Assembly (NCBI RefSeq): GCF_007990505.1
Contig: NZ_AP019822.1
Span: 62,001-126,000, forward strand
Length of the DNA: 64,000 nt
Reading direction: 5' to 3'
Source of the DNA: Pseudoleptotrichia goodfellowii
GTDB lineage: Bacteria; Fusobacteriota; Fusobacteriia; Fusobacteriales; Leptotrichiaceae
Shown: positions 18,420 through 31,109 of the stretch, piece by piece
How the letters are laid out: each line of letters opens with the position of its first letter
Numbering within the stretch: position 1 is the stretch's first letter
Position numbers and translations under genes: made by a program
Notes under the pieces: model-generated
The model's database searches: none
The model's input: only the letters and a program-made list of their open reading frames with translations
What the model was told of the DNA's origin: nothing

Positions 18420-21400
18420 ATGAATTGCAGTATTTTAATATATAAAAATAATAAATTTTATGCAAAAAAAACGTTAAAACAGATAAAAAACGGTACATAC
18501 ATATATAAATGGAGCAATATAGAAGCAGGAAGTTATTTCTTCGAGCTGGAAGATGAAAAGGGAACTGTATATGGAATTACTTATAATCATACTGCTCCTT
18601 TTGCAACAGACTTTGAAGCGGTTGCAGAGGAAAATATTCCGCCAAAGTCCATAACGGGATTTCAAAACGGTATTGATATTCTTGTGTCATATATTCCTAA
18701 TAAAAAGCTGTTTGTGCTGTCCAAAAAGAAATTTTTCAGAATGAGACTGGATATAGGGGATTTCGGACTGGAAAAAGCCGATACAATAGAAATATCGGGA
18801 AATTTCAATGACTGGACACCTGAAGAAGAGCCTGTTCATCATATGGACGGAACAATATATGAAGTAGTTTTGGCGATTCCTGAAGGTGTCTATGAGTATA
18901 AATATCTCATTGACGGGAAATGGTATCCTGAAAATGAAAATAAAAAGCTCATAATCGGAGAAAACGGAGCTTTGTTTCATGCAGGAGATATAGGAACGGG
19001 TAAATTTTCATACGAAGCTATTGATAAAAATATCGATTTGAAAGCGATAGTTCACAATTACAAAAGCTTGAGGTATTTTAATAAACTTTCGGACAGAGAG
19101 TATGAATTTACGATAAGGACTCAGGCAAATGATGTAGAAAGAGCTTTTATAAGTATAGTACTTCATGAAGAAGACAATTACGAGATGATATACGAACTTG
19201 AAAGATTTAAGGATAATACCAACGGATTTGATTATTTTAAAAGAATAATTGATTTCGGGAGAAAAATAGAGAAAATATCGTATTTTTTCGTACTTGAAGA
19301 CGGAGGAGTAAAGGCTTATTTTAACGGCGATTTGAGTTATAAAAAGCCAAAAAGAATATCTATAAGAACATCCCGTGATGATATAGAAATATTCAGTATT
19401 CCCGAATGGTCCAAAGAAGCAGTCTGGTATAATATTTTTCCTGACAGATTTTATAACGGAAACCCTTATAATGACCCTGTTTTCAATGAGTTTGGACCGG
19501 AAGCCTATAAAATAAACGAGCTTCACGAAAACGGATTTATCGAAAAATATAAATGGAATAAAAACAACAATTTATATGGGAAATTTGACAGAAACAGATG
19601 GACTGCCGATTTCAGCAAGCAGGTTACATGGGAAAAATTAGGCGAGCAGGGAATAAACTACAGTTTGAAATATGCGAGAATGTACGGAGGAGATTTGGAA
19701 GGGATAAAGAAAAAAATTCCTTATTTAAAAGATCTGGGAATAAATGCCGTATGGCTGAATCCTGTATTTTTCTCTTACCAGAACCACAAATACGGAGCAA
19801 ATGATTTCAGACATATATCGCCTGACTTCGGAACAATAAGAACGAGCGGAGAAAAGCATGATGTTGAAATAGGCAAAAACAACAAATACGGAAATAAATC
19901 ATATATTGATGTCTTAGGAAAAAATGCTGTAAACAGCAGTGAACTGAAACTGCTTGAAGTAAATCTCAAAGGAGAAAATAAAGGAAAAAACGGTTTCGGA
20001 GAAACTGCCGATCCGTCTACATGGGTGTGGACAGAATCTGACCTTATAATGGCTGATTTAATAAAAGAGTTTCATAAAAACGGTATAAGAGTTATATTTG
20101 ACGGAGTGTTTAATCACAGTAGTGACAGACACTGGACTTTTAATATGGTAATGGCTGACGGAGAAAATTCCGAATATAAAGAATGGTATAAATTTAACGA
20201 TTTCAGTCAGTATGTTCCTGTAACCGATAGTATGTCGGACGAACAGGCTTATGAAACGATGATTGAAAATAAAAAAAGAATAAAATACAACGCTTGGGCA
20301 GGATTTAACTCTCTTCCTGAATTTAACACTTTTAATCAGCAGTATAAAGAATACATTTTCAACATAACGAGAAAATGGATGTACGGACCTGACGGAGAAA
20401 CAAAAGAAAACTGGCAGGAAGATGACGGGATAGACGGCTGGAGACTGGATGTGCCGAACTGCCTTGAAAATCAGAATTTCTGGCTCGAATGGAGAGAAGT
20501 GGTAAAAGAGAGCAAGCCTGATTCATATATTACTGCGGAATTATGGGGAAATGCTTCGGGAGATATAAACGGAGGAAATAAATTTGATACGGTAATGAAT
20601 TACGAATGGCTGAAAACGGTTATAGGATTTTTTATAAATCAGAGTAAAGAAGGCGGCGATAAATATAAGCTCAAAGCTACGGACTTTTTCAATGAATTGA
20701 GGGAAAAAAGAACATGGTATCCTTTTCAGTCATTACAGGCATCGCAGAATTTAAACGGTTCTCATGATACCGACAGACTTTATTCGAGAATAGTAAATGA
20801 CGGAATAGGAAGAAATCTCGAAGAGGGAAAACAGCTGGAGAAAGGATATAACGGGATAAGGCCCGATCTTGCATCAAATTATCATCCGAATACGACTGTA
20901 AACTGGAGAGACAGTGAGATTAAACCGAAAGATATATTAAAACTTATATCAATATTTCAGATGACGTACATAGGAGCACCGATGCTGTTTTACGGCGATG
21001 AAGTGGGAATGTGGGGAGCAACGGACCCTTATTGCAGAAAGCCTATGCTTTGGGAAGAATTTATGTACGATAATGAAAAAAATCCGTCATATATAAATCA
21101 GGGAGAGGAATATCCTCAAATACGTGATAATGACCTTTACCAATGGTATAAAAAACTGATAAAAATAAGACGGGAAAACAGAGTGCTTGTTTACGGTAAA
21201 TTTAAAGAACTTGTTGCGGATAACGAAAGAGAAATCATAGCTTATGAAAGGGCAAATGAAGGACGTTCTATAATTACGGCCATAAATAATTCTTTCAATG
21301 ACTGTGCCGGTATAGAAATACAGACCGATTACCCGAATGAAAAATATATGGATTTGATAAGAGGAAATATTGTAAAAACAAGTTCTACAGGAAAAATGAA

Positions 21401-21488
21401 AATAGAATTGAAAGCAAAACAGGGAACAATTCTAAAACGTTGGATTAACGGGAGTAATGTAAACGGAATGAAAATGTTCAGGTATTAA
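18420..21488 (+). CDS. Large cytoplasmic GH13 alpha-glycosidase (neopullulanase/cyclomaltodextrinase-like)
   Basis: 1022 residues, no signal peptide. An N-terminal domain (about 1-105) precedes a CBM48-like module (about 110-190, with ISGNFNDWTPEEE and GVYEYKYLIDGKW) and a further N-domain (about 195-320). The GH13 barrel starts near WYNIFPDRFYNGNP. The catalytic set is intact: nucleophile D677 (DGWRLDVPN), acid/base E707 (ITAELWG) and transition-state D783 (NGSHDTDR), plus FDGVFNHSS in region I. It would cut alpha-1,4/1,6 glucans or maltodextrins inside the cell. It is longer than the usual 600-residue enzyme because of the extra N-terminal domains and a barrel insertion around residues 465-535. 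A DeoR regulator follows after 23 bases. Confidence 0.88.
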   Translation: MNCSILIYKNNKFYAKKTLKQIKNGTYIYKWSNIEAGSYFFELEDEKGTVYGITYNHTAPFATDFEAVAEENIPPKSITGFQNGIDILVSYIPNKKLFVLSKKKFFRMRLDIGDFGLEKADTIEISGNFNDWTPEEEPVHHMDGTIYEVVLAIPEGVYEYKYLIDGKWYPENENKKLIIGENGALFHAGDIGTGKFSYEAIDKNIDLKAIVHNYKSLRYFNKLSDREYEFTIRTQANDVERAFISIVLHEEDNYEMIYELERFKDNTNGFDYFKRIIDFGRKIEKISYFFVLEDGGVKAYFNGDLSYKKPKRISIRTSRDDIEIFSIPEWSKEAVWYNIFPDRFYNGNPYNDPVFNEFGPEAYKINELHENGFIEKYKWNKNNNLYGKFDRNRWTADFSKQVTWEKLGEQGINYSLKYARMYGGDLEGIKKKIPYLKDLGINAVWLNPVFFSYQNHKYGANDFRHISPDFGTIRTSGEKHDVEIGKNNKYGNKSYIDVLGKNAVNSSELKLLEVNLKGENKGKNGFGETADPSTWVWTESDLIMADLIKEFHKNGIRVIFDGVFNHSSDRHWTFNMVMADGENSEYKEWYKFNDFSQYVPVTDSMSDEQAYETMIENKKRIKYNAWAGFNSLPEFNTFNQQYKEYIFNITRKWMYGPDGETKENWQEDDGIDGWRLDVPNCLENQNFWLEWREVVKESKPDSYITAELWGNASGDINGGNKFDTVMNYEWLKTVIGFFINQSKEGGDKYKLKATDFFNELREKRTWYPFQSLQASQNLNGSHDTDRLYSRIVNDGIGRNLEEGKQLEKGYNGIRPDLASNYHPNTTVNWRDSEIKPKDILKLISIFQMTYIGAPMLFYGDEVGMWGATDPYCRKPMLWEEFMYDNEKNPSYINQGEEYPQIRDNDLYQWYKKLIKIRRENRVLVYGKFKELVADNEREIIAYERANEGRSIITAINNSFNDCAGIEIQTDYPNEKYMDLIRGNIVKTSSTGKMKIELKAKQGTILKRWINGSNVNGMKMFRY

Positions 21489-21511: not shown

Positions 21512-22282
21512 ATGTTTTTAGATGAAAGATTGGAAAAAATACTGGAAATTTTGTCAAAGGAAAAAAAGGTAAAAGTAAATGACTTGGCTCATAAATTTAA
21601 AGTTTCCGAAGTTATTATAAGAAAAGATTTGAAAAGACTTGAAATAGAGGGAAAACTCAGAAGAACTCACGGAGGTGCAATTCTTCTTAAAGAGCTGGTT
21701 CATACTATTGCTCTTGAAGACAGAATAATAAACAGAACAAAGCAAAAAGAAAAAATAGCGGAGAAAATAATTTCGCATATAAAAGAAAAAGAAGTGATTT
21801 TTTTTGATGTTTCAAGTATTAATTATATGGCTGCAGAACGTCTTTCAAAGATAGATAAATCTCTTAAAATAATAACGAATATGCCGAGTATTGCTGCACT
21901 TTTTAATAAAAATTCCCAAATAGAAATAATTATAGCGGGAGGGGATTATCATAAGGAAATAGGCGGTATTATAGGTTCGGAAGCAATAAACAATATTTCA
22001 AGATATAATGCAGATAAGGCTTTTATCGGCTGTGCAGGAATCGATATAGATACAGGCAGAGTAATGAATTTTGATGCAAATGACGGAAATACCAAAAGGA
22101 AGATTATGGATATTTCAGGACAAAATTTTCTCGTAACGGAATCTAAAAAAATAAATGAAACAGGGAGTTTTAATTTCTCCAATCTAAAGGAATTTACAGG
22201 AATAATAACTGAAAAAAATAAAGTGGAATATTCAAATGATATAAGAAAAAAACTTTCTGAAGATGATACGGATCTATTGTAA
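21512..22282 (+). CDS. DeoR-family transcriptional regulator
   Basis: 256 residues. The N-terminal winged helix is at about 5-58 (VNDLAHKFKVSEVIIRKDLKRLEIEGKLRRTHGGA, the DeoR signature). The C-terminal sugar-phosphate sensor domain is at about 75-235 (ITNMPSIAALF, GGDYHKEIGGIIG, KAFIGCAGID). Such regulators normally sense phosphorylated sugar intermediates. It lies 23 bases after the GH13 gene and directly upstream of the PTS gene, so it may control either. The second position of the usual ETIRRDL motif is altered to VIIRKDL. Confidence 0.88.
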   Translation: MFLDERLEKILEILSKEKKVKVNDLAHKFKVSEVIIRKDLKRLEIEGKLRRTHGGAILLKELVHTIALEDRIINRTKQKEKIAEKIISHIKEKEVIFFDVSSINYMAAERLSKIDKSLKIITNMPSIAALFNKNSQIEIIIAGGDYHKEIGGIIGSEAINNISRYNADKAFIGCAGIDIDTGRVMNFDANDGNTKRKIMDISGQNFLVTESKKINETGSFNFSNLKEFTGIITEKNKVEYSNDIRKKLSEDDTDLL

Positions 22283-22464: not shown

Positions 22465-22492
22465 TTGACTTTGCAAAAAATAGAGTTATAAT
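22465..22492 (+). promoter_or_regulatory. Promoter of the PTS IICBA gene
   Basis: TTGACT (22465-22470), 16-base spacer, TATAAT (22487-22492). Confidence 0.78.
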
Positions 22493-22509: not shown

Positions 22510-22530
22510 ATGAAATGAAACGAAATAAAA
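22510..22530 (+). promoter_or_regulatory. Putative DeoR-type operator upstream of PTS
   Basis: Repeated GAAAT/GAAAC units ending ACGAAATAAAA lie just downstream of the -10 box, where bound repressor would block transcription. The core matches the site upstream of the GRE activase (27823-27841). DeoR-family operators are often built from TTTCGTTT-like repeats (family knowledge). Confidence 0.45.
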
Positions 22531-22587: not shown

Positions 22588-24795
22588 ATGGAAAAAATTA
22601 AAAAAGAAAGTCGAATTTTTTTAACATTACAAACAATCGGAAGAGCATTTTTTTTGCCGGTTTCAATTTTGCCGGTAGCAGGATTGCTACTGGGATTGGG
22701 AGCATCATTTACAAATGAAAAAACAATAGCTTATTATCATTTGGAAAAATTACTGGCACAGGGAACATTTTTAAATTATGTATTGACAATTATGAATAAT
22801 GTAGGATTAGCTGTATTTGCCAATCTTCCGTTAATATTTGCTATGGCAGTTGCTTTCGGAATGGCTAAAAAAGAAAGAGGAGTAGCCGTTCTTTCGGCAG
22901 GACTTTCATTTATAATAATGCATACTACAATAAAAACATTATTAGTATTTAACGGGACAATATCACCTTCGGGAGAAATTTCCGAAAAAGTATTAAACGG
23001 AGCGATAGGAACGGTTTTAGGTATTCAAACTTTAGAAATGGGAGTTTTTGGGGGAATTATAACCGGTTTGGGTGTTGCATTTTTACATAATAAATTTTAC
23101 AAAACAAAATTACCTGCAGCAATTTCATTTTTTTCAGGAGTAAGATTTGTACCTATTGTCTGTACATTTTCATATATAATTGTAGGGGCTGTTTCTTTCC
23201 TTATCTGGCCTTTTATTCAACAAGGAATATATGCAATAGGAAGTGTTGTTATGTCAACCGGTGATGTGGGAATATTCATATTCGGATTTATGGAGAGAAT
23301 ACTTATTCCTTTCGGACTGCATCATATATGGTATATTCCGTTCTGGCAGACAGGTCTGGGCGGAAGTGCAGTCGTAGACGGTGTAATGCAGTACGGAGCA
23401 CAAAATATTTTCTTTGCTGAATTGGCTTCACCGAATACAAAACATTTCAGTATAGAAGCTGCGAAATTTATGACAGGAAAATATTCGTTTATGATGGCAG
23501 GTCTTCCGGGAGCAGCACTTGCTATGTATCATTGTGCAAAACCTGAAAAAAGAAAAATTGTCGGAGGATTGCTGTTTTCGGCAGCATTAACAAGCTTTTT
23601 AACAGGAATTACAGAGCCTATAGAATTTACATTTTTATTTGTTGCTCCTTTTGTGTTTGTAATACACTGTATTTTTGCTGGACTTTCTTTTGCATTGATG
23701 AGTATTTTGAAAATAGCCATAGGAACTACATTTTCATGCGGGTTGATAGATCTTACTTTGTTCGGAATATTACCGGGCAATTCCAAAACAAACTGGCTTA
23801 TGATATTACCTGTGTTTGTATTGTACTTTGCGGTTTATTATTTCTTTTTTAAGTTTGTAATTTTGAAATGGAACTTAAAAACTCCGGGAAGAGAAGATGA
23901 TACTGAAGAAGTTAAACTTTATACGAAAAATGATTACAATACAATGAGAGATGAAAGAAAAAAAGGTGTTGTTCTTGAAGATACTGTATCTCAAGCGATT
24001 ATAAACGGTTTAGGAGGACTGGATAACTTCGGGGATGTCACATGTTGTGCGACAAGGCTGAGAATGCAGGTATATAATATGGACTTGGTAAATGACGGAA
24101 TTTTAAAACAGACAGGAGCAATGGGAATTATTAAAAAAGGCAATGGAATACAGGTCGTTTACGGTCCTACGGTATCGGTAATAAAAAGTAATCTGACAGA
24201 ATATATTGATAAAATTAAAGAACACGGTATGGAAGCTTCTTTTGCAGAAGAAAAATCAATAAAAAATGTAGATTTGAAAGTGTTAAGTCTGTGTGAAGAC
24301 TGTATTTTGGAAGATTATGAATCTTTGGAAGAAATAAATAAAATAGTTGCACCGTTTAAAGGTAAAATTTTCGATGTTGAAAATATAAACGATAAAATAT
24401 TTAATACAAAAGTTTTAGGAGACGGTTTTGCAATAGAAATAGAAGGAAATGAAATTCTTGCTCCTACAAACGGGAAAATAATAAATATTTATGATACCGA
24501 GCATGCATTTATTATAGAGGACAATTATAAACATAATATTTTAGTGCATGTAGGACTTGGTACGGTAGGATTAAACGGAAAAGGAATAAAATTATTTAAA
24601 AAAGTCGGAGATGAAGTAAAAAAAGGAGAAAAAATCGGGGAAATAGACAAAAAAATAATAACAGAATCAGGATTTTCTCTGGTTTCGCCTGTAACATTCC
24701 TGAATGTAGATAAAGCAAGATACAATATACAGGTAGAAAAAGAAGGAAATGTTGAAGCAGGGGAAGAAGCAATAATCTTCATAATAAAAAAATAA
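22588..24795 (+). CDS. PTS glucose-family transporter, fused IIC-IIB-IIA
   Basis: 735 residues. The membrane IIC domain (about 1-425) contains GLHHIWYIPFWQTG and GITEPIEFTFLF. IIB (about 455-540) has the phosphorylation-site cysteine C487 in CCATRLRMQV. IIA (about 595-735) has the phosphohistidine candidate H654 in LVHVGLGTVGLNGKG, with a second histidine in TEHAFIIED. The protein imports and phosphorylates a hexose-like sugar using PEP via EI/HPr. The start is ATG 22588 behind GGAGG; the in-frame TTG at 22576 overlaps that site. Its neighbours (GldA, FSA, GRE) suggest a sugar analogue such as 1,5-anhydroglucitol rather than plain glucose (inference). Confidence 0.92.
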   Translation: MEKIKKESRIFLTLQTIGRAFFLPVSILPVAGLLLGLGASFTNEKTIAYYHLEKLLAQGTFLNYVLTIMNNVGLAVFANLPLIFAMAVAFGMAKKERGVAVLSAGLSFIIMHTTIKTLLVFNGTISPSGEISEKVLNGAIGTVLGIQTLEMGVFGGIITGLGVAFLHNKFYKTKLPAAISFFSGVRFVPIVCTFSYIIVGAVSFLIWPFIQQGIYAIGSVVMSTGDVGIFIFGFMERILIPFGLHHIWYIPFWQTGLGGSAVVDGVMQYGAQNIFFAELASPNTKHFSIEAAKFMTGKYSFMMAGLPGAALAMYHCAKPEKRKIVGGLLFSAALTSFLTGITEPIEFTFLFVAPFVFVIHCIFAGLSFALMSILKIAIGTTFSCGLIDLTLFGILPGNSKTNWLMILPVFVLYFAVYYFFFKFVILKWNLKTPGREDDTEEVKLYTKNDYNTMRDERKKGVVLEDTVSQAIINGLGGLDNFGDVTCCATRLRMQVYNMDLVNDGILKQTGAMGIIKKGNGIQVVYGPTVSVIKSNLTEYIDKIKEHGMEASFAEEKSIKNVDLKVLSLCEDCILEDYESLEEINKIVAPFKGKIFDVENINDKIFNTKVLGDGFAIEIEGNEILAPTNGKIINIYDTEHAFIIEDNYKHNILVHVGLGTVGLNGKGIKLFKKVGDEVKKGEKIGEIDKKIITESGFSLVSPVTFLNVDKARYNIQVEKEGNVEAGEEAIIFIIKK

Positions 24796-24796
24796 C

Positions 24797-24824
24797 TTGC
24801 TAAATTTGAAAATAGTGATATAAT
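24797..24824 (+). promoter_or_regulatory. Likely promoter of gldA
   Basis: TTGCTA (24797-24802), 16-base spacer, TATAAT (24819-24824). An A-rich tract at 24826-24850 (AACGCAAAAGCAAAATAAAA) resembles the operator motifs at 22510 and 27823. Confidence 0.6.
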
Positions 24825-24872
24825 TAAAACGCAAAAGCAAAATAAAAAAATAACAAGAGGAGAGTGATTTGT

Positions 24873-25958
24873 GTGAGTAAAATTATTAATTCCCCCGGGA
24901 AATATATCCAAGGGGCGAAAGAACTGGAAAATTTGGCAAAATACTATAAAATAAAAGGAGATAAGGTTGCTTATATTCTTGTGGATAAATTTGTATTTGA
25001 CAATTTCAAAAACAAAATTACGGAAAGTTTTGAAAAAGAAAATATTCCTTATCATATAGAAGTTTTCGGCGGAGAATGTTCCCAAAATGAAATAGACAGA
25101 AATATTAAAATATTGAAAGAAAAAAATTGTGATGTAATGCTCGGAATCGGAGGAGGAAAAACTCTGGATGCGGCAAAAGCTATATCATATTATGAAAATA
25201 TTCCTGTACTTATAGTTCCTACAATAGCATCAACTGATGCACCGTGCAGTGCTTTATCCGTAATATACACACCTGCGGGAGAATTTGAAAAATACTTATT
25301 TTTAAAATCAAATCCGGATATGGTTATAATGGATACGGAAGTAATAGTAAACGCACCTGTAAGATTGCTCGTAGCAGGGATAGGAGATGCACTTTCGACA
25401 TATTTTGAGGCTAAAGCCTGTGTAGATTCAAATGCTACTTCTATTGCAGGAGGAAAAGCTACAAAAGCGGCACTTGCCATAGCGGAATTATGTTTAAATA
25501 CACTGTTTGAGGACGGATTGAAAGCCAAAATAGCAGTAGAGAATAAAGTATGTTCCAAAGCAGTAGAAAATATAATAGAAGCAAATACATATTTAAGCGG
25601 AATAGGATTTGAAAGTGGAGGACTTGCAGGAGCACATGCTATACATAACGGTCTTACAATATTGGAAGAAGGTCATCACATGTATCATGGAGAAAAAGTG
25701 GCATTCGGAACTATTGTTCAGCTGGTTTTGGAAAACAGATCTCTTGAAGAAATAAATGAAGTGGTAGAGTTGTGTAAAAGTGTGGGATTGCCTACAACAT
25801 TGAAAGAACTCGGACTTGAAAATGTTTCAATTGAAAGACTTTATAAAGTTGCCGAAGCTGCAACAGTACCGGGTGAAACAATACACAATATGCCTTTTGA
25901 AGTAACGGCTGACGATGTTTATGCGGCTATATTGGTTGCAGATAAATTGGGAAAATGA
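24873..25958 (+). CDS. gldA: GldA-type glycerol/1,2-propanediol dehydrogenase
   Basis: Iron-containing-alcohol-dehydrogenase family, GldA group (361 residues). GIGGGKTLDAAKA binds NAD, PTIASTDAPCSA is the GldA substrate/cofactor loop, and metal ligands are the Asp in IGDALSTYFEA and the His residues in GGLAGAHAIHNG and MYHGEKVAFG. It oxidises glycerol or reduces hydroxyacetone to 1,2-propanediol with NADH. The start is GTG at 24873, giving MSKIINSPGKYIQG as in homologues; the GTG at 24864 is too close to the AGGAGAG ribosome site. Next to FSA and a glycyl radical enzyme, hydroxyacetone reduction is the likelier job (inference). Confidence 0.93.
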   Translation: MSKIINSPGKYIQGAKELENLAKYYKIKGDKVAYILVDKFVFDNFKNKITESFEKENIPYHIEVFGGECSQNEIDRNIKILKEKNCDVMLGIGGGKTLDAAKAISYYENIPVLIVPTIASTDAPCSALSVIYTPAGEFEKYLFLKSNPDMVIMDTEVIVNAPVRLLVAGIGDALSTYFEAKACVDSNATSIAGGKATKAALAIAELCLNTLFEDGLKAKIAVENKVCSKAVENIIEANTYLSGIGFESGGLAGAHAIHNGLTILEEGHHMYHGEKVAFGTIVQLVLENRSLEEINEVVELCKSVGLPTTLKELGLENVSIERLYKVAEAATVPGETIHNMPFEVTADDVYAAILVADKLGK

Positions 25959-25999
25959 TATAATCCTTTTGAAAATTTGTTTTAAGTAAGGATGATAGA

Positions 26000-26749
26000 A
26001 TGCTCAAAAAAGAAAGACAGGATTTAATTTTAATGAAATTAAATAATAAAGGCAAAGTTGTAGTAGGCGAGTTGGCTGTTGATTTAGGAGTTTCCGAAGA
26101 TACTATAAGAAGAGATTTAACGGAAATGGATAACAGACTGTTGCTGAAAAAAGTTTTCGGAGGAGCTTTACCTTTAAACAGATATGCTTTAAATTATACC
26201 GAAAGAGAAAATTTTGAACCTGAATTAAAGTATGAACTGGCATTAAAAGGAGTAAATTTACTGAAAAACGGTCAATTGGTAGCAATAGACGGAAGTACAA
26301 CTAATTTACAGTTAGCCAGAGCTATTCCCGTAAATTTAAAATTAACAGTAATCACAAACAGTTTGTCTATAGCAGGTGAGCTTTGTAATCATAAAAATAT
26401 AGAAGTCGTGATGATAGGAGGAAATCTTTTCAGAAAAATTATGACTAATGTAGGTGATTCGGCAGTTCAGCAGTTAAAAGAATATTATCCTGATATTTGT
26501 TTTATGGGAGCTTACGCAATTCATCCTTTAATGGGAGTAACGAGTCCTTATGAAAAGGAAATAAGTGTAAAACGTCAATTTATAAAATCTTCAGGCAGAG
26601 TTGTAACACTTATTATACCGAACAAATTTAATGTGATTATGCCGTATAAGGTATGTGATATGAAAGATATTACGACTATTATAACAGATAAAAGAGTATC
26701 TTCCGGAATATTGGAGGAATATGAAAAGATAGGAATAGAATGTATATAA
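26000..26749 (+). CDS. DeoR-family transcriptional regulator
   Basis: 249 residues. The winged helix is at about 4-57 (VVGELAVDLGVSEDTIRRDLTEM, standard DeoR motif, then KVFGGALP). The sensor domain is at about 75-235 with AIDGSTTNLQLARAI, VITNSLSIAGEL, MIGGNLFRK and MGAYAIHPLMGVTSPYEKE. It starts 41 bases after gldA behind AAGGA, so it is probably co-transcribed with it. It is the best candidate for the repressor that binds the shared motifs upstream of the PTS, gldA, FSA and GRE units. Confidence 0.9.
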   Translation: MLKKERQDLILMKLNNKGKVVVGELAVDLGVSEDTIRRDLTEMDNRLLLKKVFGGALPLNRYALNYTERENFEPELKYELALKGVNLLKNGQLVAIDGSTTNLQLARAIPVNLKLTVITNSLSIAGELCNHKNIEVVMIGGNLFRKIMTNVGDSAVQQLKEYYPDICFMGAYAIHPLMGVTSPYEKEISVKRQFIKSSGRVVTLIIPNKFNVIMPYKVCDMKDITTIITDKRVSSGILEEYEKIGIECI

Positions 26750-26770
26750 AAAAATTATAAGCATTTAAAC

Positions 26771-26816
26771 AGGCTGCTTCAAATAGAAGAAATTTCTAAT
26801 TTGAGACAGCCTTTTT
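26771..26816. terminator. Terminator between convergent DeoR and FSA genes
   Basis: AGGCTGCTTCAAAT (26771-26784) pairs with ATTTGAGACAGCCT (26799-26812), followed by TTTTT on the plus strand. It is less U-rich on the minus strand, so it chiefly ends the gldA-DeoR transcript. Confidence 0.8.
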
Positions 26817-26839
26817 GAAATTCTTATTAAAATATTGAT

Positions 26840-27556
26840 TTATAGTAAATCGAGTAAATTTTTATTACCGTATATTTCTTCCCAGTCGGAATTAAATTTA
26901 TCCATGCTCCAATCGGTATAAGGATGGTATATAAGTCTTTCAAATACATCGGGAGAAACAGTTACGGATTTTGCTCCTGCCAGCATTGTTTCATGTACCT
27001 GTCTTACATTTTTAAAGGAAGCTCCCAATATTTTCGGTTCAAATATTCTTTTATATTTTTTTAAACATTCTTCTTCGCTTTTTTTATTAATTGTAAGTAT
27101 TCTGTAGGCATCTTTAACTATTTCTATACCGCTTTCCCCTATATCATCCGATCTGTTTATATAAGGTGCCATATACTCCGCTCCGGCTTCAGCAGCCATT
27201 ATTATCTGTTGAGAAGAAAGAATACCTGTTGCTGTTATTTTATGCCCGTCTTTTGATAATGTTTTCATTGCTTTTATTCCTTCGGGAGTAACCGGAATTT
27301 TCGTATAAAAGTTTTCTCCGAATAAATCTCTTAAACGGTTAACTTCTTTTATAATAATATCTGCTGTATTTCCCGCAACCTGTGCATGAAGTATTTTATC
27401 TTTTCCTATAATATCATAAATATCATTTATAATGAGTTTAAAATCTCTCTTTTCCTTTGCTATAATTGACGGATTTGTAGTTACTCCCGCTATAGGGAAA
27501 ATTTCATTGATTTTCTTAATTTTATTTATATCGGCTGTGTCTAAAAAATATTCCAT
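26840..27556 (-). CDS. fsa: Fructose-6-phosphate aldolase (FSA/TalC type)
   Basis: Class I aldolase of the small transaldolase family (238 residues). The N terminus MEYFLDTADINKI, AGVTTNPSIIAKE and the Schiff-base lysine K86 in YTKIPVTPEG (E. coli FsaA K85), then APYINR and ILGASFKN, closely follow FsaA. FSA cleaves fructose-6-P or 1-deoxyfructose-6-P into glyceraldehyde-3-P plus dihydroxyacetone or hydroxyacetone. It is about 18 residues longer than FsaA, mostly an insertion before the ILGASFKN strand. It is transcribed divergently from the GRE activase, with a shared 312-base control region. Transaldolase activity cannot be excluded from sequence alone. Confidence 0.93.
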   Translation of the reverse strand: MEYFLDTADINKIKKINEIFPIAGVTTNPSIIAKEKRDFKLIINDIYDIIGKDKILHAQVAGNTADIIIKEVNRLRDLFGENFYTKIPVTPEGIKAMKTLSKDGHKITATGILSSQQIIMAAEAGAEYMAPYINRSDDIGESGIEIVKDAYRILTINKKSEEECLKKYKRIFEPKILGASFKNVRQVHETMLAGAKSVTVSPDVFERLIYHPYTDWSMDKFNSDWEEIYGNKNLLDLL

Positions 27557-27675
27557 AATTTAATTTAAAGAGTTGTCTTTATTTTTATTTTAAGTCAGCT
27601 CTTTTCTCCTTTCCTGAAATATGTGTTTAATTTAAAAACTGTATGATGTTTTAAAATGAAAAAATAAAATGAATA

Positions 27676-27704
27676 ATTTTGTTTTCGTATTGTTTTGTTT
27701 TTTT
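27676..27704 (-). promoter_or_regulatory. Putative operator for the FSA gene
   Basis: Read on the minus strand, AAAACAATACGAAAACAAAA lies just after the -10 box and resembles the ACGAAATAAAA tracts upstream of the activase and PTS genes. Confidence 0.4.
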
Positions 27705-27783
27705 ATAAATTGATTTTATCATATTTTTACTGAAAAGTCTAATAAAATATTTCAAATTTTTGAGTAAAAAATAAAAAAATATA

Positions 27784-27810
27784 TTGACAATTACATAAAA
27801 ATGATATAAT
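27784..27810 (+). promoter_or_regulatory. Promoter of the GRE activase/GRE operon
   Basis: TTGACA (27784-27789) and TATAAT (27805-27810) have a 15-base spacer; TAATAT at 27807-27812 would give 17. Confidence 0.7.
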
Positions 27811-27822
27811 ATGAAATATATA

Positions 27823-27841
27823 GAAACAAAACGAAATAAAA
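27823..27841 (+). promoter_or_regulatory. Putative DeoR-type operator of the GRE operon
   Basis: GAAACAAAACGAAATAAAA sits just downstream of the -10 box. It shares ACGAAATAAAA with the PTS upstream tract at 22510-22530. Confidence 0.45.
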
Positions 27842-27868
27842 TTGAATCGAAAAATAAATAGGAGAGAA

Positions 27869-28666
27869 ATGATTGCTATGGAGGCTCTTGTTACTGCAAT
27901 AGAGAGATGTGCTACATTTGACGGTCCCGGAATAAGAACCGTCGTTTATTTTAAAGGTTGTCCTCTAAGATGTAAATGGTGTTCAAATCCTGAAACACAA
28001 AAAATTGAAAATGAAGTTTTCTATAATGAAAAGGAAATTTCACCTATTACGGGAGAATACCCTAAAGTAGCCAAGCTGATGACATTAAATGAAATTTTTG
28101 ATATTGTTATGAAAGATGAAAAATTTTATCGTAATTCCGGTGGCGGTGTAACCTTAAGCGGTGGAGAAATACTTGTAAATGTAGAATTTGCTATAAAATT
28201 GTTTGAAAAATTAAAAGAAGAATATATAAATACAGCAATAGAAACCACAGGATACGGAAATTATAAAGAATTTGAAAAATTGGCAAAGCTGACTGATACG
28301 GTTTTGTTTGATATAAAGCATATGAATAGTCAAAAGCACAAAGAATACACTGCCGTTTCAAATGAACTGATACTGGAAAATTTGGAAAAATTATCCAAAT
28401 GGCACAAAAATATAATTATGCGGTTTCCGTTGATTAAAGGAGTAAATGACGATGATGTTAATGTTGAAGAAACAGCAAAGTTTTTAAAAAAAATAAATTT
28501 AATAGATGTAGATGTTCTTCCTTACCATACGATGGGAGTTGAAAAATACAGAAAATTAAGAAGACCTTATCCTATGAAGACTTTAGAAAAGCATACAAAA
28601 GAAGAGTTGGAGCATGTAATAGAACTTATGAGAGGTGTGGGAATAAGAGCCAGAATAAATAATTAA
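27869..28666 (+). CDS. Glycyl radical enzyme activase (radical SAM)
   Basis: Radical-SAM activase (265 residues from ATG 27869). The CX3CX2C cluster motif GCPLRCKWC gives C31, C35 and C38. FDGPGIRTVVYFKGC, NSGGGVTLSGGE and DVLPYHTMGVEKYR are typical of PflA/PflC-type enzymes. It makes the glycyl radical on the enzyme encoded 37 bases downstream. No other cysteines follow the cluster, so the extra ferredoxin clusters found in many activases of this group are absent. ATG 27869 is preferred (AGGAG 4 bases upstream); ATG 27878 and the weak upstream TTG at 27842 are alternatives. Confidence 0.93.
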   Translation: MIAMEALVTAIERCATFDGPGIRTVVYFKGCPLRCKWCSNPETQKIENEVFYNEKEISPITGEYPKVAKLMTLNEIFDIVMKDEKFYRNSGGGVTLSGGEILVNVEFAIKLFEKLKEEYINTAIETTGYGNYKEFEKLAKLTDTVLFDIKHMNSQKHKEYTAVSNELILENLEKLSKWHKNIIMRFPLIKGVNDDDVNVEETAKFLKKINLIDVDVLPYHTMGVEKYRKLRRPYPMKTLEKHTKEELEHVIELMRGVGIRARINN

Positions 28667-28703
28667 TAAAAAATTCAAATAAAATTTAGAGGAGGAAAGG
28701 CAT

Positions 28704-31109
28704 ATGAAAGAATATGTTTTAAAAAGTGAAAGAGTAAAGAAACTTAGAGAATCTGCATTATCAAAGTTTCCGGGTGTAAGTGTGGAAAGGGGAAGACTGT
28801 TGACTAAAGCATATAAAGAACATGCAGGAAAATCCAAATATATTGTGAGAGCTTATGCAGTAAAAGAAATACTGGAAAATATGACTATATACATTAAAGA
28901 CGGTGAACTGATTGTCGGAAATCAGTCCGTAGATGAAAGAACTGCACCGTTTTTTCCTGAATATGCAGTAGACTGGATTGCAGATGAATTGAAAGAAAAA
29001 GGAAATTTTGATTCAAGGGACGGAGATAAATTTCGTATACCTGAAGAAGAAATCCCGGAAATGCTTGAAATATGTGAATGGTGGAAAGGTAAAACATTAA
29101 AAGATAAAGCCCATGCTCAAATGCCTAAAGAAATTAAAGAGGCGGGAACTGTAAAAATAATCCACGGAGAAGGAAATATGACATCAGGGGACGGGCATAT
29201 AGTACCTTCATTTGAAAAAGTTTTGGAAAAAGGATTAAGAGGAATAATAGAAGAAGCAAGAGAATCCAGAGAAAAAGTGGATATAACAGTATACGGAGGA
29301 TATAATAAAGTTGATTTTCTGAAATCGGTTGAAATTGTTGCAGAAGCGGTAATAAATTTTGCTCATAGATATGCGGACTTGGCATTAAAATTGGCTCAAA
29401 CTGAAAAAGACGACACAAGAAAAAAAGAATTACTTCAAATATATGAAAATTGTATGAATGTACCTGAAAATCCTGCGAAAACATTTTGGGAAGGGGTACA
29501 GGCAATATGGTTCGTTCATTTGGTAATACAAATTGAAAGTAACGGGCATTCTGCATCTTTGGGAAGAGTAGACCAGTATTTATATTCTTTGTATAAAAAA
29601 GATGTTCTTGAAGGAAATACAGATAGAGAATTTGCAAAAGAAATGCTGCAATGCTTATGGGTAAAACTTTATTCTGTAATAAAAGTGAGATCAACTTCCC
29701 ATTCAGGCTATGGAGCAGGTTATCCGACTTATCAGAATGTTACTTTGGGAGGTTCCAAACCTAACGGAAAAGACTGTACAAATGAATTGAGTTATCTGAT
29801 TCTTGAAAGTGTGGGAGAAAACAAACTTACACAACCTAATCTGGCAGTCAGATACCATGCAAATTCTCCTGAAAAATTTATAAGAGAATGTGCTTCTGTA
29901 GCAGCTACAGGATTCGGAATGCCTGCAATGCATACTGATGAAATAATTATACCTGCATTATTAAATAAAGGAGTGGATTTTAGAGATGCCTATAATTATA
30001 CAATGGTGGGATGTGTAGAAGTAGCTGTTCCGGGAAAATGGGGTTACAGATGTACAGGAATGACATTTTTAAATCTTGTAAAAGCAACAGAACTTGTTTT
30101 AAATGACGGTTATGATAACAGAACAGGATTGCAAATGCTTAAAGGACAAGGAAAACTTACAGATTTTGAAACTTATGACGACTTGTGGAAAGCTTGGGAA
30201 AATCATATTAAACATTATACAAAGCTTACTGTTGCACTTGATGCACTTGCCGATACTCATTTAGAAGAATTTCCGGATATATTGTTATCAAGCCTGGTTG
30301 ATTCATGTATAGAAAGAGGACTTACTGCAAAAGAAGGAGGAGCTGTTTACGATATAGTTTCAGGATTGCAGGTAGGTATTGCAAATGCTGCAAATTCATT
30401 GTATGCTTTAAAAACTGTAGTGTATGATAACAAAATATTGACAAGGGAAGAAGTTTATAATGCGTTGCAAAACGATTACGCAGGGGAAGAAGGGGAAAGA
30501 ATAAGAAAAATATTATTGGAAGTACCTAAATACGGAAATGATATAGATGAAGTGGATGAGTTTGCCGAAAAAGTTTACTGGTCATACATTAATGAAATAC
30601 AGAAATATCATAATACAAGATATGGAAGAGGACCGAAAAACGGAGGTTACGGAGTTTCTACTTCGGGAATATCTTCAAATGTACCGATGGGAACTGTGAG
30701 CGGTGCTACACCTGACGGAAGAAAGGCATATACTCCTGCAGCTGAAGGAGGTTCCCCTACACAAGGAACTGATACAAACGGACCTACAGCAGTATTAAAT
30801 TCTGTAAATAAATTACCGACTATGATGATTACAGGAGGGCAATTATTAAATCAGAAATATTCTCCTGAATTGGTACGAACTCCTGTACAGTTTGAAAAGT
30901 TTGTTGATGTAATAAAATCCTTTATTGCTTCAAAAGGATGGCATATTCAGTTTAATATTATTTCAAGTGATACTTTAAAAGAAGCACAGGTAGAGCCTGA
31001 AAAACATAGAGATATAATTGTAAGAGTTGCAGGTTATTGTGCACAATTTGTAACACTTGATAAAACTACACAATGCGATATTATTTCCAGAACAGAGCAA
31101 AGATTATAA
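28704..31109 (+). CDS. Glycyl radical enzyme (PflD/YbiW-like C-O lyase candidate)
   Basis: 801 residues. The active-site thiyl cysteine is C437 in MVGCVEVAVPGKWGYRCTG, with E439 two residues on. The glycyl radical site is G777 in RVAGYCAQF, 25 residues before the end. GCVE followed by a VPGK-type segment points to the dehydratase/C-O-lyase branch rather than pyruvate formate-lyase. The context (PTS, GldA, FSA, activase) matches the E. coli PflD/YbiW group, reported to open 1,5-anhydrohexitol-6-phosphates to 1-deoxyfructose-6-P. Glycerol or propanediol dehydratase are alternatives, but no microcompartment or propanediol genes are present. The start has GGAGG and the gene ends at a strong terminator. 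Confidence 0.9.
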   Translation: MKEYVLKSERVKKLRESALSKFPGVSVERGRLLTKAYKEHAGKSKYIVRAYAVKEILENMTIYIKDGELIVGNQSVDERTAPFFPEYAVDWIADELKEKGNFDSRDGDKFRIPEEEIPEMLEICEWWKGKTLKDKAHAQMPKEIKEAGTVKIIHGEGNMTSGDGHIVPSFEKVLEKGLRGIIEEARESREKVDITVYGGYNKVDFLKSVEIVAEAVINFAHRYADLALKLAQTEKDDTRKKELLQIYENCMNVPENPAKTFWEGVQAIWFVHLVIQIESNGHSASLGRVDQYLYSLYKKDVLEGNTDREFAKEMLQCLWVKLYSVIKVRSTSHSGYGAGYPTYQNVTLGGSKPNGKDCTNELSYLILESVGENKLTQPNLAVRYHANSPEKFIRECASVAATGFGMPAMHTDEIIIPALLNKGVDFRDAYNYTMVGCVEVAVPGKWGYRCTGMTFLNLVKATELVLNDGYDNRTGLQMLKGQGKLTDFETYDDLWKAWENHIKHYTKLTVALDALADTHLEEFPDILLSSLVDSCIERGLTAKEGGAVYDIVSGLQVGIANAANSLYALKTVVYDNKILTREEVYNALQNDYAGEEGERIRKILLEVPKYGNDIDEVDEFAEKVYWSYINEIQKYHNTRYGRGPKNGGYGVSTSGISSNVPMGTVSGATPDGRKAYTPAAEGGSPTQGTDTNGPTAVLNSVNKLPTMMITGGQLLNQKYSPELVRTPVQFEKFVDVIKSFIASKGWHIQFNIISSDTLKEAQVEPEKHRDIIVRVAGYCAQFVTLDKTTQCDIISRTEQRL

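Follow-up and report, generated by a model that had tools for sequence, protein, structure and literature searches.

In Escherichia coli, anhydroglycolysis is said to include steps catalysed by fructose-6-phosphate aldolase (FSA) and by the dehydrogenase GldA. According to the summary of Ma et al. 2024 (JACS 146:26187) given in a clinical review (PMC12441222), the polyol is phosphorylated by a phosphotransferase system (PTS), and the glycyl radical enzymes (GREs) YbiW and PflD convert 1,5-anhydroglucitol-6-phosphate (AG6P) and 1,5-anhydromannitol-6-phosphate (AM6P), respectively, to 1-deoxyfructose-6-phosphate. By their PDB titles, entries 8id7 and 8id0 are YbiW with AG6P and a streptococcal PflD with AM6P. 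What the initial annotation of the locus described here says about YbiW and PflD is borne out by this summary and by the ligands of the two structures. The chemistry is not new, since the E. coli route was published in 2024; what appears to go beyond it is the taxonomic home in Leptotrichiaceae, a clade sister to YbiW, and a paired cassette for 1,5-anhydromannitol (AM).

Two E. coli loci serve as references. The YbiW/YbiY/FsaA locus resembles the one studied here in its GRE, which has the same active-site motifs, and in the adjacent activase and FSA; it differs in having no PTS, GldA or DeoR genes there, and YbiY carries a Cys-rich insert lacking in the activase described below. The pflD-pflC-frwBCD/ptsA-fsaB-gldA locus, acting on AM6P, likewise brings together a GRE, an activase, an FSA, GldA and a PTS, but its GRE is of the PflD type and its PTS of the fructose type, and its counterpart is a second locus of the organism rather than the present one.

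The window, that is the whole 64,000-nucleotide stretch analysed, covers positions 62001-126000 of the complete single-contig genome (2.29 Mb) of Pseudoleptotrichia goodfellowii, an anaerobe related to the oral genus Leptotrichia. The five gene types that had been reported to lie together (PTS IICBA, GldA, FSA, activase and GRE) are each present and intact. Of the two DeoR regulators claimed with them, one lies inside the interval from the PTS gene to the GRE gene and the other just outside it. The FSA-like gene is transcribed from the minus strand and diverges from the activase gene, an orientation that the earlier description leaves out. The features, in window coordinates, are as follows:

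21512-22282, plus strand: DeoR-family regulator 1, 256 aa (PF00455 and PF08220), 5' of the main cluster
22465-22492, plus strand: promoter-like site for the PTS-GldA-DeoR2 transcript, TTGACT-16-TATAAT (11/12 consensus matches)
22518-22530, plus strand: operator-like AAACGAAATAAAA, copy 1, within a run of GAAA repeats directly 3' of the -10 site
22588-24795, plus strand: PTS IICBA of the glucose family, 735 aa (PF02378, PF00367, PF00358)
24864-25958, plus strand: GldA-type glycerol/1,2-propanediol dehydrogenase, 364 aa (57% identity to E. coli GldA; NF006941)
26000-26749, plus strand: DeoR-family regulator 2, 249 aa (PF00455 and PF08220)
26840-27556, minus strand: fructose-6-phosphate aldolase-like enzyme, 238 aa (36-38% identity to FsaA/FsaB)
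27784-27812, plus strand: promoter-like site for activase-GRE, TTGACA-17-TAATAT (10/12 consensus matches)
27829-27841, plus strand: operator-like AAACGAAATAAAA, exact copy 2
27869-28666, plus strand: GRE activase, radical SAM, about 265 aa (TIGR02494), without the Cys-rich [4Fe-4S] insert
28704-31109, plus strand: YbiW-type GRE, 801 aa, with C437, E439 and G777 (type assigned from the tree and class-specific residues)

A GH13 alpha-amylase/neopullulanase-like protein of 1022 aa with a starch-binding-like domain is encoded directly upstream of the cluster (18420-21488). Neither this gene nor the neighbouring pgk showed conserved linkage to the cluster in relatives, and both were treated as unrelated.

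The GRE contains domains PF02901 and PF01228 and scores 873 bits against TIGR01774, the PFL2/glycerol dehydratase family (cut-off 678). Residues C437, E439 and G777, singled out in the initial annotation, are invariant across 17 aligned relatives; with these domains, the catalytic Cys and Glu and the radical Gly, the protein is a PFL2-3 (TIGR01774) glycyl radical enzyme. It is 46% identical to YbiW over the full length and 36% to PflD, and its best matches among PDB sequences are an Enterobacter YbiW-like protein (765 bits) and YbiW (764); the dehydratases for glycerol (B12-independent, 604) and propanediol (585) score lower, as does PflD (493). Its close named relatives, at 94, 87 and 86% identity, are all from Leptotrichiaceae. 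The profile search of the GRE returned no curated YbiW equivalog model. A structure model built with 17 sequences has a mean pLDDT of 73.7 and low confidence at the active-site loops; several GRE families came within tie range of YbiW, or above it, so that fold comparison cannot choose the substrate.

In a maximum-likelihood tree of 34 GREs, from which the PflB outgroup was left out, the clade of the window GRE is sister to the YbiW clade (support 94/93), with PflD and the diol dehydratases forming a separate group (98/96). An earlier tree that included the distant PflB row had a long branch and no support for the backbone order, which was resolved once PflB was removed. Both clades are supported at 100/100; the window clade comprises Leptotrichiaceae, Sebaldella, Clostridium and Propionispora, and the YbiW clade comprises E. 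coli, Klebsiella, spirochaetes, enterococci and one Leptotrichiaceae genome, G065. Grouping with glycerol or propanediol dehydratases had been named beforehand as a result that would speak against an anhydroglycolysis enzyme, and the tree places the GRE with YbiW instead. The proposal of a YbiW/PflD-type enzyme thus holds in its YbiW part but not in its PflD part, the PflD-type enzyme being found at the second locus.

The active-site motifs GKWGYRCTG, EGNMTSGD and ESNGHS and the RxGxGPxxGxY insert of the window GRE are as in YbiW. Sixty-one alignment columns are conserved and equal in the window and YbiW clades and different in the PflD clade, and five are common to the window clade and PflD against YbiW. 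In the dehydratases and PflD the catalytic Cys-x-Glu is followed by a His-Asp pair, which in the C. butyricum dehydratase includes D447; YbiW and the window GRE have Thr-Gly in its place (T451-G452 in the latter, inside GKWGYRCTG).

AG6P is our best guess for the exact substrate and stays conditional because the window clade is separate from that of YbiW, at an identity that leaves room for another compound. The distinction between 1,5-anhydroglucitol (AG) and AM lies at C2; taken with that between YbiW and PflD at the His-Asp/Thr-Gly position, it would suggest that the window GRE handles the gluco form, AG6P rather than AM6P. The best-surviving alternative, to which we give a small share of our confidence, retains the chemistry and changes the sugar: the window clade would be a distinct ring-opening family, here with a minimal activase, that is not specific to AG and converts some other phosphorylated anhydro- or deoxy-sugar, such as another anhydrohexitol or related deoxy-sugar 6-phosphate, into an FSA substrate. 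The separateness of the two clades favours this idea, as do 31 columns that are conserved within each clade yet differ between them, some of which adjoin active-site motifs (e.g., SGYGAGYPT vs SKASAGSPL and TSGISSN vs TSSISAN). The class-defining motifs, however, agree with YbiW and not with PflD or the dehydratases, and G065, whose GRE belongs to the YbiW clade, has a PTS of the same IICBA type together with DeoR, activase and FSA.

That the window GRE opens AM6P, the function of PflD, is very unlikely in our judgement. Product and downstream enzymes would be identical, and the initial annotation had left the choice between AG6P and AM6P open; but the enzyme scores 606.5 bits against the PflD equivalog model (PRK09983/NF007437), whose cut-off is 1109, it has no LHD motif as found in PflD, and a true PflD ortholog is encoded elsewhere in the same genome. 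The latter lies in a second cassette at about 592-601 kb (G000:C1:591991-600329; L007:3992-12329), outside the window and absent from the earlier note. Its genes encode a GatZ/KbaZ-like protein, EIIA and EIIC of a fructose-type PTS, a DeoR regulator, a PflD-type GRE, an activase and an FSA. At 60% identity to PflD, this GRE also clears the equivalog cut-off for that enzyme (1286 vs 1109 bits); the EIIC passes PRK10478, the FrwC model, and the FSA is 85% identical to the FSA-like protein of the window. Ascorbate-type UlaG and UlaA genes come after this cassette. Given this gene content, with its PflD ortholog and FrwC-type PTS, the organism most likely has both E. coli branches, that for AG in the window and that for AM at the second locus, and the two cassettes perhaps share the single GldA.

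Harder still to credit is that the GRE dehydrates glycerol or 1,2-propanediol and has GldA as its partner oxidoreductase. The adjoining GldA gene, the name of the TIGR01774 family and the common fold would fit such an enzyme, but the Thr-Gly in place of the His-Asp pair and the separate position in the tree argue against it; moreover, neither substrate would call for a PTS or an aldolase, and genes for a microcompartment are absent beside the GRE. The old annotation name of the family, formate C-acetyltransferase, would fit an enzyme of the pyruvate formate-lyase type; this or another known GRE (HypD, CutC, IslA, sulfopropanediol dehydratase) is just as improbable, because the protein falls at least 400 bits short of every such equivalog cut-off returned and the genome has a separate PflB-like enzyme.

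The activase of the cluster scores 266.8 bits against TIGR02494 (cut-off 174) and has an intact radical-SAM motif, CKWCSN. Its start is most likely the ATG at 27869, giving 265 aa, rather than the TTG at 27842, because AGGAG precedes the former and the latter abuts the operator-like motif. The accessory ferredoxin-like Cys-rich insert present in YbiY, PflC and clostridial homologues is deleted, as it is in the activases of G085, L010 and the second locus (L007:10832-11611); some Leptotrichia keep it, and it is absent from the Enterococcus and G082 homologues. Intermediate, partly eroded inserts occur in activases of relatives, and the insert seems to have been lost more than once. Pyruvate formate-lyase activase functions without the insert, so its loss is no argument against activity.

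In FsaA, Lys85 is the Schiff-base residue and is accompanied by Tyr131 and a set of pocket residues. The FSA-like protein retains K86 (=K85), Y132 (=Y131) and A130 (=A129), as well as D6, T26, N28, Q59, T110, R135 and S180, so that the residues on the phosphate side are kept too. The A129S exchange in FsaA improves the use of fructose-6-phosphate, and FSAs take hydroxyacetone as a donor (PMC7767278). The protein scores 202.9 bits against the curated equivalog TIGR00875, below its cut-off of 245.95, and is therefore termed FSA-like, of family PF00923.

The genome has a single GldA gene, that at 24864-25958; its product exceeds the cut-off of subfamily NF006941 (545 > 336 bits) and stays below that of equivalog NF047954 (529.5 < 700). 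In most Leptotrichia the GldA gene is not linked to the cassette, so the enzyme may serve other routes. The PTS combines EIIC, EIIB and EIIA domains, all of the glucose superfamily, and falls short of the glucose equivalog TIGR02002 (497 < 592). An IICBA fusion adjoins the GRE in several other genomes too, with 77-82% identity in the g1/g6 genomes and 48% in G065, and the full-length fused form was matched only by PTSs adjoining the GRE. The IICB part of the window PTS is equally near a paralogue encoded elsewhere in its own genome (50%) and the G065 PTS (49%), which makes the PTS weaker as evidence on the substrate.

Regulation of the two transcripts may be linked. The 13-mer AAACGAAATAAAA, starting at 22518 and 27829, is common to the PTS and activase-GRE promoters and in both sits just 3' of the promoter-like site, these sites being consensus matches and no proof of a promoter. 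Two exact copies occur in 64 kb against 0.06 expected, and none of 100 shuffles contained two, a count that serves as a guide and not as a strict test since the motif was chosen after inspection of both promoters. In relatives, too, the activase gene is preceded by a TTGACA-type promoter with GAAA repeats behind it. Leptotrichia and Sebaldella-type genomes encode homologues of regulator 1 (58-64% identity) close to the GRE, and in relatives a homologue of regulator 2 (82-88%) stands beside GldA or the PTS. The 13-mer and GAAA repeats fit candidate DeoR-type operators, and the two promoters are probably co-regulated by DeoR-type repressors. A search for an operator common to the window GRE locus and the second cassette revealed no notable shared motif.

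Among 98 Fusobacteriota genomes, only those of Leptotrichiaceae encode GREs closely related to that of the window (73-94%), so that in this sample the trait is limited to the one family. Within Leptotrichiaceae (n=33) an FSA is encoded in 22/22 genomes with a YbiW- or PflD-type GRE and in 0/11 others (Fisher p=5e-9, kinship ignored); the match holds inside two genera in which some species have neither gene, both being present in 10/13 and 2/4. GldA occurs in 20/22 of the GRE-bearing genomes versus 3/11 of the others (p=4e-4, kinship ignored). Loci with GRE, activase and FSA, in most cases joined by DeoR and often by a PTS, are seen in varied gene orders among Leptotrichiaceae and clostridia. 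On this comparative evidence the clustering is not due to chance, and a gene set that stays constant while its arrangement changes from genus to genus speaks for a functional link rather than for simple inheritance.

Loci from other bacteria share parts of the arrangement. In Clostridium and Propionispora the GRE belongs to the window clade (65-70% identity) and many loci have the order DeoR-activase-GRE-FSA, but no GldA or IICBA PTS adjoins in the loci examined and the activase keeps the insert. In spirochaetes, Enterococcus and G065 the GRE is often accompanied by DeoR and activase, and in G065 also by an IICBA PTS and FSA, but it is of the YbiW clade (48-54% to YbiW) and not of the window clade; the stretches examined from Enterococcus contained no match to FSA. 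The G065 cassette (L085:8532-15646), in which the YbiW-clade GRE stands with an activase, IICBA PTS, DeoR and a divergent FSA (32%), suggests that the GRE type was replaced or transferred.

Several other GRE genes were observed. The Sebaldella-type genome G090 has two more (L066:9367-11730 and L067:9404-11764), which form their own clade (100/100), share 39-42% identity with YbiW and with the window GRE, and are each accompanied by an activase and DeoR with no adjoining FSA; they are possibly an uncharacterised GRE type. Propionispora encodes a 523-residue protein (L029:15101-16672), shorter than normal GREs, with a weak GRE match (24-25%) and an adjoining activase-like gene. In G067 a PflD-type GRE (G067:C83:81342-83408) has an in-frame TAA stop and is perhaps part of a decaying second cassette.

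Taken together, the YbiW-sister GRE with its catalytic residues, the co-occurrence with FSA and the shared promoter motif support the anhydroglycolysis reading, and the cluster is likely to be a cassette for AG. From these genes we infer the following reactions and energetics. The PTS IICBA would import AG as AG6P. The activase would generate the glycyl radical of the GRE at Gly777; once passed on to Cys437, the radical would let this residue take a hydrogen from AG6P, whereupon the ring C-O bond would open and 1-deoxyfructose-6-phosphate would form. With Lys86 forming a Schiff base, the FSA-like enzyme would split this product into glyceraldehyde-3-phosphate and hydroxyacetone, and GldA would reduce hydroxyacetone to 1,2-propanediol, balancing the NADH of lower glycolysis. 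The net conversion would be of AG to pyruvate and 1,2-propanediol with about 1 ATP; as AG (C6H12O5) equals the sum of these products by formula, the route would be redox balanced. A search for a GH31 alpha-glucan lyase that could supply anhydrofructose inside the cell gave no convincing candidate, the genome containing one weak GH31 match (30.9 bits).

AG, a sugar alcohol resembling glucose, occurs in human blood and saliva, where it is used or proposed as a marker of glycaemia (PMC4870767, PMC11560458), and microbes that remove AG have been discussed, with doubt, in a clinical review (PMC12441222). The window clade provides a well-defined sister group of YbiW for testing the residues that govern substrate choice. 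If the proposed reading is true, Leptotrichiaceae, to which some bacteria of the mouth belong, have parallel cassettes for two sugar alcohols that are metabolically inert, AG and AM, and bacteria consuming AG in the mouth could alter salivary readings of this marker.
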